This document shows, in pieces, positions 32,145-50,296 of a stretch of DNA of 64,000 nt. Numbering within the stretch: the first letter of the stretch is position 1; the number at the start of each line of letters is the position of its first letter. Source of the stretch: Methanoculleus chikugoensis (GTDB lineage Archaea; Halobacteriota; Methanomicrobia; Methanomicrobiales; Methanoculleaceae); contig NZ_FMID01000047.1 of assembly GCF_900095385.1 (NCBI RefSeq), positions 1 to 64,000 of the forward strand. The letters run 5' to 3'. The position numbers and the translations under genes were made by a program. Below the pieces are notes generated by a model, which saw nothing but the letters and a program-made list of their open reading frames with translations, was not told the origin of the DNA and made no database searches.

Positions 32145-32682
32145 CGTGTTCTCTCATCTACCGTCGGTCACTCAAAGGTCATCACGAACCGTGTGTACTC
32201 TCGCCCGCATCCTCCCCGACCCGAACCTCCGGGATATCGGGATACGCCTGCGGTCGCCGGATCGCTGGTGCGGGTTATCGTCGCCGGAAAGCAACTCCCT
32301 GCCGAAGGGGAGGACCCGGATATCATCCGTTCCGCCGAGAATGTCCGTCTCCCGCATCGTGCCGACACCACGGCCGGGGCGTTCAATGCCGGAGTTCTGT
32401 CCCACCCGCAGGGACCGGGTTGAAAGGCCCCGTACAACGCCGCCAACCGGGCTCATACCCCTTATGATGCACAGGTACCATTTAATGATTTAGGGCGGAG
32501 GAGGCTGTTCTTCCTCGCTATGACGGGAAAACGGGTACGTCCATTTCGGTTCACGGCGCCCCCGGCAAGCCGGCCCGTGCCGGGGGATCGCTGCGTGTTC
32601 TGGGAGACAATGACCGGGGGCGAAGATGGAAGTCGGCCCATGGCAGACGGGATGTTCGAATCCCAAAACCCGCCTGGACCCG

Positions 32683-32896
32683 GTACTTCGGTAAAACGGT
32701 TGAGGTAATCTTGAAGAGGTCAAACCATCGACCTCCCTTCGCGTTCTTCGCGCTCTTCGCGTGAGACTATATCGCTATCTTCACCCATTAGCTCACGCGA
32801 AGACGCGAAGTCCGGTGCCCGGGTGCCGCTGATCCCGTTTCAGATCGCTATGCGAGGCTGCATTGTTCGATTTCAGATGCCGAAATTAGTGAAGTT
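32683..32896 (+). mobile_element. Family-1 inverted-repeat element, copy A (about 214 bp)
   Basis: The left end reads GTACTTCGGTAAA and the right end AATTAGTGAAGTT, an imperfect terminal inverted repeat. The centre is a strong hairpin: TTCGCGTTCTTCGCGC then TCGCGTGAG, paired with CTCACGCGAAGACGCGAAG. It shares more than 70 bases of left flank with copy C, and its right half (GTGCCCGGGTGCCGCTGATC) matches copy B in inverse. There is no coding capacity, so it is non-autonomous. Confidence 0.8.
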
Positions 32897-33052
32897 CCGG
32901 GACCGGGTCGGAGCGATCGGGACGTCAACGCCGCAATCCGTATCGGTTTGCACTTGCAGGCGGCGGAGCAGCGCCGCCGAGCCTGTGGATTCGCTCCCGG
33001 CGGGAGAGGGGATGATAGCCGGGAAGCCCCATCCGTAAGGGCGGGTTAGTTC

Positions 33053-34825: not shown

Positions 34826-34857
34826 CCCCTTGTTCGGTCACTTGAGTCTCAGCCTCA

Positions 34858-35118
34858 ATACTTCGCTAATTCAGACATCTGCAATCGAGCAATGCAGCCT
34901 CGTCTAACGACCTCGAACGGGATCAGCAGCACCCGGGCACCGGACTTCGCACCTTGCGGTGCTCATGCTCCTGCCCTTCGGCCAGTCGCGCTTCGCGGCT
35001 TCGCGCTCTTCGCGCGAGGCTCTCTTGAGTCGTACACTGAAACCTCACGCGAAGACGCGAAGGGAAGTCGAGGGGTTGGCTCCCAGAGTGTGGTCTCAAC
35101 CAAATTTAGCGAAGTACT
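34858..35118 (-). mobile_element. Family-1 inverted-repeat element, copy B (about 261 bp, inverted)
   Basis: Ends read AATACTTCGCTAA and TTTAGCGAAGTACT, the clearest terminal inverted repeat of the family. It extends outward as GCCTCA/TGAGCC. The central CG-rich hairpin (GCGCTTCGCGGCTTCGCGC to CTCACGCGAAGACGCGAAG) is conserved. It lies in the opposite orientation to copies A and C. No coding capacity. Confidence 0.85.
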
Positions 35119-35244
35119 GAGCCTCTTCGAGCACAGGCTCAGGCAGATTCTGTTCCTCTGCCTCGTCTAGAATGCGGCGAAACCCGCTCCCCCTGCTCGA
35201 TCGGACCCTTTCGCCGGTCTGTCAACCAGGGGCCGCTCCCCCCT

Positions 35245-35375
35245 CACAGCGGGAAGATCGCGTACTGATGTACCAGATGTACTGCACCACCGGTATCCAG
35301 AAGTGATACCCCTCCCAGCAATTCGTCGCGAACCGGAAGTCGATGACGACCTCCCACGCAAGCGGGAAGAGTCTT
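35245..35375 (-). pseudogene. Fragment 1 of repeated 3' end of the 45.5 kb membrane-protein gene
   Basis: About 130 bases match the last 40 codons of the intact gene at 45512 (GAACCGGAAGTCGA, TCCAGAAGTGATACCCCTCC), with indels and lost frame. It starts at the same point as the other copies, just before the stop codon (CACAGCGGGAAGATCGCG). Confidence 0.85.
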
Positions 35376-35416
35376 CACCAACCATTGTAAATATGGTCAG
35401 CACTTACAGTATTATC

Positions 35417-36538: not shown

Positions 36539-36858
36539 TGACCTGAGTTATATTCAACCACCTCGGGGGAACTGCCACGCCCTGAATGATGCGGCATTTC
36601 ATCCAGATCACATCCCAGGAGAACCTGATGTGTCGAGGGTATACTTTCCTAAGGTAGCGGTATGTATCGGAGTTCCTCTGTTCCACCACACTGACGGCAG
36701 GAGGCTTCTCCGGGAGAAAGAGAGAGTCCGCCTCGGGGCGAAGGGTTACGGAGGAGCCACGTCTGCTCGCCTGGGGCTTGCAGAACCGTGAACGTCTCCC
36801 GCCCGTCCTGACGATGAAGGAGGGCGGCGCTGTTTCGTTCTTTGTCGGCCCCTCTCCC

Positions 36859-37510
36859 TCACAGCGGGAAGACCGCGTACTGGATGTACCAAATATACTG
36901 CACCACCGGTATCCAGAAGTGATAGCCCTCCCAGCAACCCGTTGCGAACCGGAAGTCGACGACGAGTTCCCAGGCAAGCGGGAAGAGCATCAGCACCGGG
37001 ACGGCATAGGCGAGGAGGCGGGGGGAGGCGCGTTTGGCGAGGACGGCGATATACAGCACCGCGGCTCCGGCGAGGAAGATGCAGGTGAGGGTCGTGACGA
37101 ACGTGACCTGCCCGCCGGGGCTCCGGCCGGCGATGACCTGGAGGACGACGAAGATGAGCGGGAGTTCGATGACCGCGAGCCAGAAGAGGGTCCGGAGCGC
37201 CTCTTTCACCCTGTCACCGTCGAGACCGGCGTGTTTCAGGGCGTAGACGCCGATGACGAGCATGGGGAGGTAGGCCGGAGAGAGGTAGCGCATGTCAGGG
37301 ATGATCCCGGGGCTTGCCGACATCCCCGGGATGGAGCGGGCGTAGGTGAGCACTACGAGGAGGGCGGACGGAGAAGAGGCCTCCGGGTGGGAAGGCGTAA
37401 TGGGCGACCACGGCGCTCCAGGGGCTCTCTATCCCGGAGGGGAGCGTGTTTGCTCCGGTGGTGGTATAGCCTGCCACATAGGCGTAGGGGAAGAGAAAAT
37501 GTCTGACTAT
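36859..37510 (-). pseudogene. Fragment 2 of repeated 3' end of the 45.5 kb membrane-protein gene
   Basis: Translation of 36859-37353 (RSIPGMSASPGIIPDMRYLS to the YAVFPL end) matches the last third of the intact protein at 45512. Further upstream, in another frame, a segment (AGYTTTGANTLPSGIESPW then SAVVAHYAFPPGGLF) aligns with the region around AGYASAAGKAPQGFLSTVAG of the intact protein. An internal deletion and a frameshift separate them. It is a decayed, truncated paralogue, not a functional gene. Confidence 0.85.
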
Positions 37511-42091: not shown

Positions 42092-42207
42092 TCTGTCTCT
42101 GCGCTACACCCTGTTCCCTCGCTCTGGAACGTTATCAATCTGACTTTACCGCTGGCGGGCCGGGCCCGTGTGCAAGAGGGGGTCCGGTGCGGAGACCTTC
42201 CCGCCCT

Positions 42208-42540
42208 TCAGAGCGGGAAGATCGCGTACTGGATGTACCAGATGTACTGCACCACCGGTAGCCAGAAGTGATACCCCTCCCAGCAGGCCGTCGCGAACCG
42301 GAAGTCGACGACGAGTTCCCAGGCGAGCGGGAAGAGCATCAGCACCGGGACGGCGTAGGCGAGGAGGCGGGGGGAGGCGCGGCGGGCGAGGACGGCGACA
42401 TAGAGCACCACTGTCCCGGCGAGGAAGAGGTAGGTGAGGGTCGTGACGAACGTGACCTGCCCAGCGAGGTTCTGGCCGGCGATGACCTGGAGGGCGATGA
42501 AGATGAGCGGAAGATCGATGACCGCGAGGCAGGAGAGGGC
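42208..42540 (-). pseudogene. Fragment 3 of repeated 3' end of the 45.5 kb membrane-protein gene
   Basis: About 330 bases in an open frame encode DLPLIFIALQVIAGQNLAGQ, then a stretch ending YIWYIQYAIFPL, highly similar to the last 110 residues of the intact protein at 45512. The frame is uninterrupted, suggesting this copy is younger than those at 35.2 and 36.9 kb. It lacks any start and most of the gene. Confidence 0.88.
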
Positions 42541-43385: not shown

Positions 43386-44504
43386 TTGGAAAAGCCAGCA
43401 GGAAGAACGGCCGGAAGAGAACTGGAAATAGTCATCTCTCCTCTCATCAGGGAGATCCGGGATATCGTCCAGAAAGCCCGCCTGGCCGTAGCACAGAACG
43501 TCAACTCGATACAGGTCGTCACCAACTTCGAGATCGGCAGGCGGATCGTCGAACATGAGCAGCAAGGGAAGCCGAAGGCGGGGTATGGGAAACAGACCAT
43601 GCAGGAGCTTTCACGCCAGCTGACCGAAGAGTTTGGGAGAGGGTTTTCCAAAAGAAATCTTGAGTATATGCGCCGATTTTACCTTGAATACCGTGAGTTG
43701 ACTCCTCAGACAGTGCCCGACGGGTCCGATACGGCCGTTTCTGCCGGGCAACCAATTGCGCAAACACTGTCTGCGCAATTCACCCCCTGGGTTGCTCTCA
43801 GCTGGTCTCACTACGTCTTCCTGATGAACATCGGCCACCGGGAAGAGCGCCGGTTCTACGAGATCGAGGCTCAACAGAACCGCTGGTCGCTCTCGGAACT
43901 CAAACGGCAGTTCAACACCGGCCTGTATGAGCGGCTTGCGCTCAGCCGGGACAGGAGCGGTGTGAGAGCCCTCGCCCGCACCGGCCACGTCATTGAGAAG
44001 CCACAGGATATGCTCAAAGACCCATATGTTCTTGAATTTCTCGGCCTTGACGAGAAGGTCAGCTACAGAGAGATCGATCTCGAATCGGCCATCATCGACA
44101 AACTGGAGACGTTTCTCCTTGAGCTGGGCAAAGGGTTCCTCTTCGAAGCGCGACAGAAGCGGCTTACCTTCGATGCCGACCACTACTTCGTAGACCTCGT
44201 CTTCTACAATCGTATCCTCCGGTGTTACGTCCTGATCGACCTCAAAATTGGAAAGATTTCCCACAGCGACCTCGGCCAGATGCAAATGTATGTCAACTAC
44301 TATGACAGGGAAGTCAAACTCGATGACGAAAACCCGACCGTCGGGATCATCCTGTGCAAAATCAAGAACGACGCACTGGTAGAGCTCACTCTCCCGAAAG
44401 ACGCCAATGTCTACGCTTCCCGGTATCAGGTCTATCTTCCCTCAAAAGAGGAACTCAAGAAAAGACTGATCGAATGGTCGAAAGACACGCCGGAGACAGA
44501 GTGA
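43386..44504 (+). CDS. DUF1016 / PDDEXK nuclease-domain protein (YhcG-like), intact
   Basis: A 372-residue protein of the DUF1016 family. The N-terminal domain has a VNSIQVVTNFEIGRRIVEHE helix and the FSKRNLEYMRRFYLEY motif. The C-terminal PDDEXK-like domain has LELGKGFLFEARQKRLTFDA, then YFVDLVFYNRILRCYVLIDL and KIGKIS, giving the D-x(n)-E/D-x-K core. The start is a TTG set by a strong GAGGAGGAG site six bases upstream. Family members are thought to be nucleases linked to mobile elements or restriction loci. Two other copies in the island are broken. Confidence 0.88.
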   Translation: MEKPAGRTAGRELEIVISPLIREIRDIVQKARLAVAQNVNSIQVVTNFEIGRRIVEHEQQGKPKAGYGKQTMQELSRQLTEEFGRGFSKRNLEYMRRFYLEYRELTPQTVPDGSDTAVSAGQPIAQTLSAQFTPWVALSWSHYVFLMNIGHREERRFYEIEAQQNRWSLSELKRQFNTGLYERLALSRDRSGVRALARTGHVIEKPQDMLKDPYVLEFLGLDEKVSYREIDLESAIIDKLETFLLELGKGFLFEARQKRLTFDADHYFVDLVFYNRILRCYVLIDLKIGKISHSDLGQMQMYVNYYDREVKLDDENPTVGIILCKIKNDALVELTLPKDANVYASRYQVYLPSKEELKKRLIEWSKDTPETE

Positions 44505-45408: not shown

Positions 45409-45511
45409 TGGAGACTCTTGCCGGAGAATACCGTCGGCGTTTTTAGTGCGTTAGAGCGGCATCCTGCGCCTCCTTTCACCGGCCGGTCAAAAAGGAACTC
45501 TCCCACCCCCT

Positions 45512-47260
45512 TCACAGCGGGAAGATCGCGTACTGGATGTACCAGATGTACTGCACCGCCGGTATCCAGAAGTGATAGCCCTCCCAGCAGCTGGTGGCGA
45601 ACCGGAAGTCGACGACGAGTTCCCAGGCAAGCGGGAAGAGCATCACCACCGGGACGGCGTAGGCGAGAAGGCGGGGGGAAGCGCGGCGGGCGATGACGGC
45701 GACGTAGAGCACCGCGGCACCGGCGAGGAAGAGGTAGGTGAGGGTCGTGATGAACGTTATCTGCCCTGCATGGTTCTGGCCGGCGATGACCTGGAGGATG
45801 ACGAAGATGAGCGGGAGGTCGATGACCGCGAGCCAGAAGAGGGTCTTGAGGGATTCCCGCACCCCATCGCCGTCGAGGCCGGCGTACTTTAGCGCGTAGA
45901 CCCCGATGACGAGCATGGGCAGGTAGGCCGGGGAGAGGTAGCGCATGTCGGGGATAATCCCGGGGCTTGCCGGCATCCCGGGGATGGAGCGGGCGTAGGT
46001 GAGCACCACCAGGACGGCGGCGAGGGCGAAGAAGGCGAGGAGCCGAGCGTCCCGTGAGTCGATCCCGGTCGATCTCCGGCGGATGATGGCGTAGCCGATT
46101 ACTCCGGCGAGGAGGAGGGCGAAGAACGAGACCGGCGAGACCTGGAAGAATGCGGCGGCTCCGGCCCTGACCGGCTCGAAGAAGGCGCCGTAGAGGCCGG
46201 TGAGGAGGTCGCCGGGCGGCGGGGCGTAGTGCCCGGCGACGGTGCTCAGGAAACCCTGCGGCGCCTTCCCCGCGGCGGAGGCATACCCCGCCGTCCAGGG
46301 GAGGACGAGGGGGCTGCCGGAGAGCCCCCAGTTGTTCACGAAGAGCGGGAGGGCGCCGAGCGGGACCCCGACGGCGGCGAGCACGGCCTTCCCGACCTCC
46401 CGCCGCCCCTTCGAGGCCGCGACGGCGACCCCGAAGAGGAAGAACCCGGCGGCGAGCGCCGGGCCGAGTTCAGGCCGCGCAAACGCCGTCCACCCGACGG
46501 CGATAAACGACCCAAAGAGGTAGAGGATGTTCTCCCGCGAGAGGTAGAGGGTGAAGCAGTAGAGCGCGACGGTGAAGAGGAGGGCGACGAGCGCGTGGTC
46601 CTTGGCGTTCCCCGACCAGAAGAGGTACGAGGAGCAGCAGACCGTCGCGGCGAGCCCGAAGAGCCCCCAGAGGTCTGACCCGAGGACTTCGCGGAAGATC
46701 AGGAAGGCGACGACGGCGAGGAGGGCGAAGGCAATGCTGTTTGTAAAGACGATTGCGGCGACCTCGGGGTAGACCCCCACGTCGTAGGGGTGCACCCCCC
46801 GCACGAACCAGAACGGACGGTAGAGTGCGGCGTTGAGGATCAGGAGTATGCCGGAGGAGATGATCCCGGCCCACGTCCAGGGGACTCCCCGCCAGCGGGC
46901 ATATCGCGGGAACCAGAACTCGACCATGAGGAGCAGGGCGAGGAGGAGGGCGGACCAGAGGAGGATGACGACGAGGCGGAAGTCGTCGCCGAAGAGCGAG
47001 AAGAGGTAGTAGGCCGGGAGCGAGACGATGGGGAGGGCGAGGGTGTAGCAGAGGGTGTCGTGGTGGTTGGCGGCGTAGTCAGCTGCTCCATAGGGCGAGT
47101 AGCCGTAGAGGAGGTCGTTTCCGGTGACGAGGTGGTTCAACTGGTCGGCGGTGATCCACTCGTCGGTGAGGTAGAGGAGGGGATAACCGAGCGTCAGGGA
47201 GAGAAGGAAGCAGAGAAATGTGATGAATAGCGTTTTCTTTAAAAAAAGGGGATTGTTCAT
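45512..47260 (-). CDS. GT39-like polytopic membrane protein, probable glycosyltransferase
   Basis: A 582-residue membrane protein with about 12 hydrophobic segments. Its first luminal loop after helix 1 (YLTDEWITADQLNHLVTGND) and topology resemble GT-C (ArnT/PMT-type) glycosyltransferases that use lipid-linked sugars. It would act in surface glycosylation (inference). The gene starts nine bases after the stop of a type IV pilin gene, so the pilin may be its substrate. Its 3' end has been copied three times within 10.3 kb downstream in the direction of transcription, at 42.2, 36.9 and 35.2 kb. Confidence 0.78.
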   Translation of the reverse strand: MNNPLFLKKTLFITFLCFLLSLTLGYPLLYLTDEWITADQLNHLVTGNDLLYGYSPYGAADYAANHHDTLCYTLALPIVSLPAYYLFSLFGDDFRLVVILLWSALLLALLLMVEFWFPRYARWRGVPWTWAGIISSGILLILNAALYRPFWFVRGVHPYDVGVYPEVAAIVFTNSIAFALLAVVAFLIFREVLGSDLWGLFGLAATVCCSSYLFWSGNAKDHALVALLFTVALYCFTLYLSRENILYLFGSFIAVGWTAFARPELGPALAAGFFLFGVAVAASKGRREVGKAVLAAVGVPLGALPLFVNNWGLSGSPLVLPWTAGYASAAGKAPQGFLSTVAGHYAPPPGDLLTGLYGAFFEPVRAGAAAFFQVSPVSFFALLLAGVIGYAIIRRRSTGIDSRDARLLAFFALAAVLVVLTYARSIPGMPASPGIIPDMRYLSPAYLPMLVIGVYALKYAGLDGDGVRESLKTLFWLAVIDLPLIFVILQVIAGQNHAGQITFITTLTYLFLAGAAVLYVAVIARRASPRLLAYAVPVVMLFPLAWELVVDFRFATSCWEGYHFWIPAVQYIWYIQYAIFPL

Positions 47261-47815: not shown

Positions 47816-48366
47816 TATTGGAGTGATTCTTTCCAGAATGATTTTATGTCCCTGTCGCCGGTTGTGTGAAAGAATCTTTCATGGAATACATGGTTTGCCG
47901 AAAAGAACCAACAGGCTCAGAATGCCGTTTTATGGGTAATACGAATTCATCGGTATGCACATATAAAAAAGGCCCCCTTCCGGCGTGCCGCCCGGGTGCG
48001 GCGGGGTGGGGCGGTATGGTGGTTCGAGCGGGCCGGATCCGGGGCGGCGTGCAGCCGCAGCCGTCTCCGGGGAGATGTGCCTGTGCGTCGTGGGGCGGGA
48101 CGGTGCCCGTGGATCATGCCGGGCATTGATGGATATCGGTAAGACGGGAAACGGTACCCGCTCCCGAACCCCCGGCTAACCCCGTTCACCGGCGAGGAAC
48201 GTCCCGGATTCCCTGACGGTGATCCCGGAGAGGATCCCCTCATCCGGTCGCTCAGGATAGGTGTCGGTGAAAGCAGACCCCTTCCCGGATCACGGAGACC
48301 GGCGGGAAGTGCGCATCCGGCACCACAGGGATATCCAGGGTTTCGACCGGGGCATTCTCCTCTCCC
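47816..48366. other. Intergenic stretch with decayed duplicate of the 50.5 kb region
   Basis: No intact gene. From 48231 it matches 50464 onwards (AGGATCCCCTCATCCGGT and CAGACCCCTTCCCGGATCA), the sequence downstream of the relE gene at 50665. The first 400 bases show nothing I can name. Confidence 0.55.
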
Positions 48367-48637
48367 AGTACTTCGCTAAAATGGCTGAGGTAGTCTTCAA
48401 GAGGTCGATCCATCGACTTCTCTTCGCGTTCTTCGCGCCTTCGCGTGAGTTGATAGGCGAAGATACCAATACGGTCTCACGCGAAGAACGCGAAGCCGCG
48501 AAGCGCGACTGGCCGAAAGGCAGGAACGTGAGCACCATCAGGTGCGAAGTCCGGTTTCCGAGTGCTGTCAACTCCTCGTTTCCGTATTGTACGAGGCCGC
48601 ACTGCTCAGTCTCGGGTGCCGAAACGAGTGAAGTACT
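48367..48637 (+). mobile_element. Family-1 inverted-repeat element, copy C (271 bp)
   Basis: Ends read AGTACTTCGCTAAA and GAGTGAAGTACT. The centre has the family hairpin (TTCGCGTTCTTCGCGC, then CTCACGCGAAGAACGCGAAG). It lies in the same orientation as copy A. It interrupts a sequence that is present without the element at 50464-50704, so this copy has a visible empty-site counterpart. Confidence 0.85.
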
Positions 48638-48668
48638 GTCTCCCCGGGACATGGGCATCGCAGTCTCC

Positions 48669-48948: not shown

Positions 48949-50296
48949 TCAAACTCCCGAACGGATTTGTTCTTCAATAAAAGCCTGCATTTCATCTTTT
49001 CCCGGCAGTTTTAGCAGATACCTGGAGACGAAGAGATTGTTGTCCATGCCTGCCAGAGCGTATTCCACCAGCGCCTGATTTTTATGGGTGCAGAGCAGGA
49101 TACCCACCGGCGGGTTATCTCCTTCAGTCATCATGTTCTCTCTATACCAGCTCACATAGGTGTTAAGTTGGCCAATGTTTTCATGACTGAAACCGTCCAG
49201 TTTCATCTCTACCAGTACATGGCATTTAAGAATACGGTGGTAAAAAACCAGGTCCACAAAAAAGTGCTCGTCACCAATGAGTATGCGTTTCTGCCGGGCT
49301 TCGAAACAGAATCCGTGGCCTAACTCGAGAAGAAATGCTTCCAACCTTTTGAGGAGTTGACTTTCCAGATGTGATTCGCTCATCACTTCTTCAGGCGAAG
49401 TTATCCCAAAACGCTATTGCTGGGAGGGGGACACCCCCTCCCAGACCCTCCCCCAAGTGGCGATATCCAGTGGAAAGCCGTTTCACCCCCCTGGCTCAGG
49501 ATGTGGCTCAGATGGCGGATACCGGGTAATTAAGGGCTCCGATCAGGGTGTGCCGGAGGTTCGGAGATCTTTTTGGGATGACCTCGGCTTGAGTCCCAGA
49601 AATTCGAAAATGTAGGGGTCACGGATAGCCAGATTAGGCTCGGCCTGATCCGCATTCTGCTGTGCCACCTCTGAAAGTTTCTTTTTATCGGTCGAGAGCC
49701 CGGAGCGTTCATAATATAGACTGTTAATCTGACGTTTCAACTCGCGCACCGACCAATTACCGCGGATGCACTCGACTTCGTAAAAAGCGCGCCTGGTTTC
49801 GTCCTCCAGATTGATGAGTTCCGCGAGATGGGTAAAGGAGAGTCTGGAGATCAATATCTTACCTGCAATGCGGGATTGTGGAGTCGCTGACTCCACAATC
49901 AGAGATCCGCTATCCTGGGAGTCAATCCCCGATCCAGCGAAAAGTCTCTGTCGAATCGATGCAATCAGGAACTGCGTCAATTGTGGAGGCAGTGCCTCCA
50001 CAATCTGTGGATAGGTGAGATAGAACCGCCGATATCGGTACAACTCCCGACGGTCGCAACGTGATATCCCCTGAGCCGTCAGGATTTCTGCAAGCCTGTC
50101 CATTAGCCTGTCTCCATAATCCGCACGATCAATGCCGGAACGCTCGTATTCCTCAATGTAGCAACCAATGAGCCAGTTTCTGAGCGTCAGGCTGATATTG
50201 ACTGCACGACTGGCCTGAGCAACCAGTTCATCATGAACGTGGCGGATAAGACCCTACCAGTCCATCAAAATTGAATGTCTGTTCTTCCGTACTCAT
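48949..50296 (-). pseudogene. DUF1016 / PDDEXK nuclease gene, interrupted
   Basis: Three parts of one gene. The start (MSTEEQTFNFDGLV) at 50296 loses frame near 50255. The N-terminal body is open from 50103 to about 49586 (to YIFEFLGLKPR). The PDDEXK half resumes at 49386 (MSESHLESQLLKRLEAFLLE, then HFFVDLVFYHRILKCHVLVE). Between the last two lies family-2 element copy 1 (49397-49585). Without the insertion the frame would continue LKPR-EVMSESHL, as in the intact paralogue at 43386. Either half might still be translated, but not a full protein. Confidence 0.85.
49397..49585 (-). mobile_element. Family-2 inverted-repeat element, copy 1 (189 bp)
   Basis: The plus-strand ends read GAAGTTATCCCAAAA and TTTTGGGATGACCTC, a 15-base imperfect terminal inverted repeat. 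An inner hairpin, GGGAGGGGGACACCCCCTCCC, is also present. About 180 bases align in inverse with 57660-57836. It sits inside the DUF1016 gene. No coding capacity. Confidence 0.85.

Follow-up and report, generated by a model that had tools for sequence, protein, structure and literature searches.

The window analysed here, a stretch of 64,000 nucleotides from a Methanoculleus chikugoensis contig (NZ_FMID01000047.1), contains three copies of a gene-less element, at positions 32681–32899 (219 bp), 34856–35119 (264 bp), and 48366–48638 (273 bp). These copies are very probably MITE derivatives of a Methanoculleus ISH3-family insertion sequence that enclose a palindrome as a passenger. The ISH3-derived MITE family is new; the kind of element it represents is already known and ordinary. 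The hairpin in its interior is a palindrome family separate from the ISH3-type MITE. It is a less understood repeat than the MITE and merits its own study, the manner of its spread being the interesting part.

Structure and insertion sites of the copies

Copy 1 is on the forward strand and is bounded by terminal inverted repeats (TIRs) at 32681–32694 and 32886–32899 that match at 11 of 14 positions. It is flanked by the target-site duplication (TSD) GGACC at 32676–32680 and 32900–32904. Copy 2, on the reverse strand, has TIRs at 34856–34869 and 35106–35119 (13/14 matches) and the TSD AGCCT at 34851–34855 and 35120–35124, while copy 3, on the forward strand, has TIRs at 48366–48379 and 48625–48638 (11/14) and the TSD TCTCC at 48361–48365 and 48639–48643. 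The duplications, to which no strand is assigned, are exact over 5 bp at all three copies. An earlier note, made from the letters of the window, had recognised the three copies and had described two as lying one way and one as inverted. The inverted copy is that at 34856, and the true ends lie a base or two further out than the note had placed them. Inverted repeats are indeed present, but the note's description of them as perfect-looking does not hold in the window. The family-wide end consensus is CAGTACTTCGCTAA, which forms the 14-bp TIRs, and perfect TIR pairs are found elsewhere in the same genome (contigs C10 and, twice, C30) and in relatives. The copies have no conserved coding capacity, in line with the note, which had proposed none: the ORFs across them are mechanical, and copy lengths vary.

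The genome of the window (G000; 2.65 Mb in 70 contigs) has about nine near-complete copies of the ISH3-type MITE in total. Those beyond the window are located at C10:4188–4460, C30:5705–6072, C30:39460–39689, C70:68915–69128, C67:23372–23659, and C28:15803–16139. The sequence GTACTTCGCTAA, with at most one mismatch, occurs 23 times in G000 compared with once for a reversed control. A search of the whole genome and of relatives for the ends and the hairpin found further copies of both, and a DNA-level search of a plasmid collection for the element gave no match. A lone ISH3-type end can be seen at C10:4075–4088 in G000, about 110 bp from a complete MITE, and also in G011 (C1:573970) and G003 (C1:706051). 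This end, common to the three genomes, is either an older relic or a composite.

Duplications were compared across 32 elements, comprising MITEs and insertion sequences, several of them from relatives. Identical 5-bp flanks were found on both sides of 22 of the 32, against about 0.03 expected by chance, and five more matched at four of the five positions. The target duplications of these elements fit a symmetrical preference, NGNCN. For the empty-site test, the element was removed, one duplication was kept, and the joined flanks were compared with sister genomes. The site of copy 2 is represented by continuous DNA with a single AGCCT in G016, G027, and G003, and that of copy 3 by continuous DNA with a single TCTCC in G033. 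The site of copy 1 is probably empty in G006, though the right flank is divergent there, and in G025 copy 1 is represented by a relic that has lost internal sequence but retains the mutated left end. The copy 3 insertion is also present, with a longer interior, in G030 (locus L308, contig C9). In this ortholog, tandem small-hairpin units of about 47 bp surround a run of N. The units are possibly related to the 45-nt satellite family that has been reported for M. marisnigri (PMC6749651).

The probable ISH3-family partner

Exact matches to CAGTACTTCGCTAA were sought across 61 relatives. Inverted pairs of this sequence are found 1318 bp apart in G029 (two pairs), G011, G027, and G010, and they delimit an insertion sequence with perfect ends. 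Three of its five copies, two in G029 and one in G027, are flanked by 5-bp TSDs (AATAG, ACGCA, and ACACC). It encodes a single 386-aa gene. The protein is an ISH3-family transposase according to NCBIfam (269.5 bits against a cut-off of 225; E 3.1e-80), while its match to Pfam DDE_Tnp_1 falls under the cut-off of that model. When the protein is aligned with annotated ISH3 transposases (from Methanomethylovorans, Halobacterium, and Nostoc plasmids), residues D116, D198, and E298 show no variation. An element annotated as ISH3 in the Methanomethylovorans hollandica plasmid pMETHO01 has an identical left end over 14 bases, a right end with 13/14 matches, and the TSD aatgt. ISH3 insertions in Halobacterium salinarum likewise produce 5-bp duplications (PMC10264941). 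A transposase-bearing element with the same ends, which the earlier note had suggested looking for, is thus found in other Methanoculleus genomes. The TIRs, the target duplications, the empty sites, and this autonomous partner with identical ends bear out that note's comparison of the copies with a MITE. G039 belongs to another genus of the order. Several of its ISH3-type left ends (L302, L304, and L305) lead into a transposase gene, whose reading frame in L302 breaks after about 95 codons.

The window copies share with ISH3-family insertion sequences (NCBIfam NF033541; e.g., the pMETHO01 element) their CAGTACTTCGCTAA ends and a 5-bp duplication, but the DDE transposase is on the insertion-sequence side; the copies are without a transposase gene and have an unrelated interior. 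Ungapped sequence shared between MITE and insertion sequence amounts to the 14–18 terminal bases only. Because homology to the parent is limited to these bases, the family corresponds to a type II MITE, which is defined by sequence shared with the parent insertion sequence being confined to the TIRs (PMC10969869). We rejected an origin as an internal-deletion product of the insertion sequence, since the ends alone match. Prokaryotic type II MITEs are similar also in being multicopy, gene-less, and about 200–370 bp in length (PMC10969869). The family differs from them in that its interior is one repeat module, found also alone and in another MITE family.

We propose that an ISH3 DDE transposase, supplied in trans, would recognise the 14-bp ends and move the element by cut-and-paste chemistry. 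It would insert the element by a 5-bp staggered cut, preferring NGNCN-type sites, and 5 bp would be duplicated as a result. The interior is a separate palindromic module, with CTTCGCG arms and a loop of about 26 nt, enclosed between ISH3 ends, as opposed to a deleted transposase gene.

No ISH3 transposase was found in G000 with the family model and protein searches, so the copies there look like orphans. They probably date from earlier activity and would stay stranded without a return of the enzyme. With G000 assembled into 70 contigs, an insertion sequence could have been collapsed and lost from it, though no fragment was found. Perfect-ended MITEs also occur in the transposase-free genomes G001, G004, G015, and G032, and we therefore infer the partner from shared ends and not from co-residence. 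Methanogens gain an ISH3-derived MITE family with clear ends, a target preference, and a partner enzyme, and this family accounts for several mosaic intergenic repeats in Methanoculleus.

The palindromic core within and outside the element

Between its left and right subterminal segments, the interior of the MITE holds the palindromic core and, optionally, small-hairpin add-ons. The core comprises CTTCGCG-like units around the loop and is located at 32737–32810 in copy 1 (forward strand), 34991–35062 in copy 2 (reverse), and 48422–48503 in copy 3 (forward). The earlier note had called this hairpin unusually strong, and in DNA folding it does exceed dinucleotide shuffles, with z-scores of −5.9, −3.0, and −5.6, respectively. 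Alignment places small-hairpin add-on modules, which occur in some copies only, at 34946–34990 in copy 2 (reverse strand; GCACC..GGTGC and CCTTCGG) and at 48504–48551 in copy 3 (forward). An Rfam search at the gathering score gave no match within the window.

With respect to the ends, the loop can lie either way round (the C70 copy versus the C10 copy, and copy 1 versus copy 3), which could be explained by an inversion between the arms, through recombination or template switching. Loops were also similar across elements, with a score of 21 between L102 and L202 (shuffle maximum 8) and of 14 between copy 1 of the window and L173 (shuffle maximum 5). Since some loops of ISH3-type MITEs match those of other elements well beyond shuffles, the cores either share a source or are exchanged.

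The earlier note had also suspected that the hairpin is more than a passive spacer. This is borne out insofar as it belongs to a separate repeat family, but not as regards help in the movement of the element, and copies with damaged arms appear to have moved. A palindrome that is functional in the element and kept by selection, either by shortening the distance between the ends through cruciform extrusion or through a regulatory or RNA-stability role, would be in keeping with its occurrence, intact or rearranged, in every near-complete ISH3-type MITE examined, and with the presence of the same palindrome in bacteria and in a second MITE family whose ends differ. We nevertheless regard such a function as unlikely. 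L095 and L300, at different sites in G029, have a common rearranged right arm and weaker folds (z −3.2 and −2.7), with TSDs that match at 5/5 and 4/5 positions, so movement does not seem to require an intact hairpin; this dispensability is weakly tested by two copies whose arms can still pair partly. Moreover, copies differ freely in loop length, loop orientation, and add-on modules, and the autonomous insertion sequence has no core, yet is mobile. We favour instead the reading in which the core would be carried as a passenger.

Many cores are found outside the ISH3-type MITE. Among the cores examined, a recognisable ISH3 end is absent from both sides of 10 of 15 in G000, 14 of 20 in G013, and 16 of 17 in G029, the control being an ISH3-like end at about 0–1% of random positions. 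Exact cores number 17 in G000, 51 in G013, and 42 in G029, and several complete genomes of the genus have none. Stand-alone cores in L187 and L202 form tandem units of 105–107 bp, with arms of alternating orientation and a pair of alternating spacers. G029 also contains a second MITE family of about 167–343 bp, with TGGACCATTTCACCTTAT ends and 4-bp CTAG/CTAC duplications (L290–L295, L194, L196, L198, L200, and L201), some copies of which are arranged head to tail with CTAG between units. Several copies of this family carry the same CGCGAAG/CTTCGCG material in opposite phase. Among the pattern matches listed, none was an autonomous partner of this CTAG-type family.

A generic search for TIRs and duplications around stand-alone palindromes performed no better than its control, recognisable families aside, and the extended core pattern had no match in viral contigs. 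The intergenic region from prefoldin to a leuA-type gene in G000 (C58:34370–34690; L214) has orthologous loci in L251–L254, L258, and L274. It is empty in many relatives and holds different palindrome-bearing elements in others, and is thus a repeated insertion site. Where the region is filled, the block exceeds the palindrome in length and resembles another element, so that insertion ends of the palindrome itself are unreadable there.

The exact palindrome was also sought in one genome per species. Among the matches listed, most are from Methanoculleus, and others are from bacteria. The match continues into extra CTTCGCG-type units that were not part of the query in Planctomyces, Opitutaceae, Novosphingobium, Parasphingorhabdus, a Desulfuromonadales, and an alphaproteobacterium. 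The matches in Kytococcus, Leptolyngbya, Kapaibacterium, and Polyangiaceae have no extra units and look like chance. The longer pattern has about ten occurrences in the Planctomyces genome and five in that of the Opitutaceae, with differing loops. Loci with the extended palindrome come from several bacterial phyla and include L324, L335, L369, and L389 (Planctomyces), L346 (Opitutaceae), and L337, L379, L329, and L375. We rejected a gene constantly linked to the core, as the bacterial neighbours are ordinary and varied (nuoF-nuoG, sufB, dnaA-like, and others). Six 15-mers of the CTTCGCG repeat had no match in the literature text searched, a weak result given that sequences often sit in figures.

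Tentatively, the CTTCGCG palindrome might be an independent family across archaea and bacteria (Methanoculleus, Planctomyces, Opitutaceae, sphingomonads, and others), with near-fixed arms and freely varying loops, spread by a not-yet-identified enzyme or recombination process and repeatedly taken up into MITEs of unrelated transposons as their core. The archaeal-bacterial sharing could stem from common descent, transfer, or convergence. If one palindrome does occupy the MITEs of unrelated transposons and also stand alone in distant phyla, the current list (REP/RAYT and MITE/insertion sequence) lacks a repeat-spreading process, and such a process would be testable in already sequenced genomes.

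Comparison with other repeats and remaining alternatives

The enclosure of a core between non-autonomous ends recalls TIMEs, the mosaic Tn3-derived miniature elements in which such ends surround swapped cores (PMC4133298). TIMEs, however, have Tn3 ends and occur in Pseudomonas, and what is swapped in them is a resolvase or plasmid module, whereas the core here is a palindrome. The stand-alone cores resemble BIMEs and REP elements (PMC2817692, PMC3733652) in their alternating palindromic units, two recurring spacers, intergenic location, and tandem expansion.

This likeness raises the question of whether the core is the true mobile unit, a REP/REPIN-like element served by a Y1/RAYT transposase, with the ISH3-like ends incidental. 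The many cores without ISH3 ends and the BIME layout of the units in L187 and L202 would suit such a unit, but we consider it highly improbable. The ISH3 ends are accompanied by 5-bp TSDs, and the empty sites are cut exactly at these ends. A REP carries a GTAG or CGTC tag at one end of its palindrome (PMC3733652), and no such tag recurs in 52 core contexts read by eye; the arms of CTTCGCG units are also longer than those of REP elements. No Y1 transposase, and hence no RAYT, is found in the hairpin-rich genomes G013, G029, G003, G006, G030, G032, G011, and G000, and Y1 genes over the cut-off occur only in the hairpin-poor genomes G010, G020, G022, G023, G002, and G014. With Y1 and hairpin distributions opposite, mobilisation of the core by RAYT/Y1 was rejected.

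An origin of the copies as pieces of a larger duplicated block, a possibility the earlier note had raised, is excluded by the empty sites in relatives and the copy-specific duplications; some short flanking stretches do recur in the island (query 1006–1146), but the flanks of the copies differ and similarity stops at the TIRs.

Two further features of the window were observed. A stretch of about 140 bp at 35255–35395 has matches at 36847–36987, 42204–42336, and 45472–45648, and is also present in most relatives. Beside MITE copy 3, at 48949–50103, YhcG_C and DUF1016_N domains are split over two ORFs, and this region appears to be a disrupted copy of the gene that is intact at 43386–44504.
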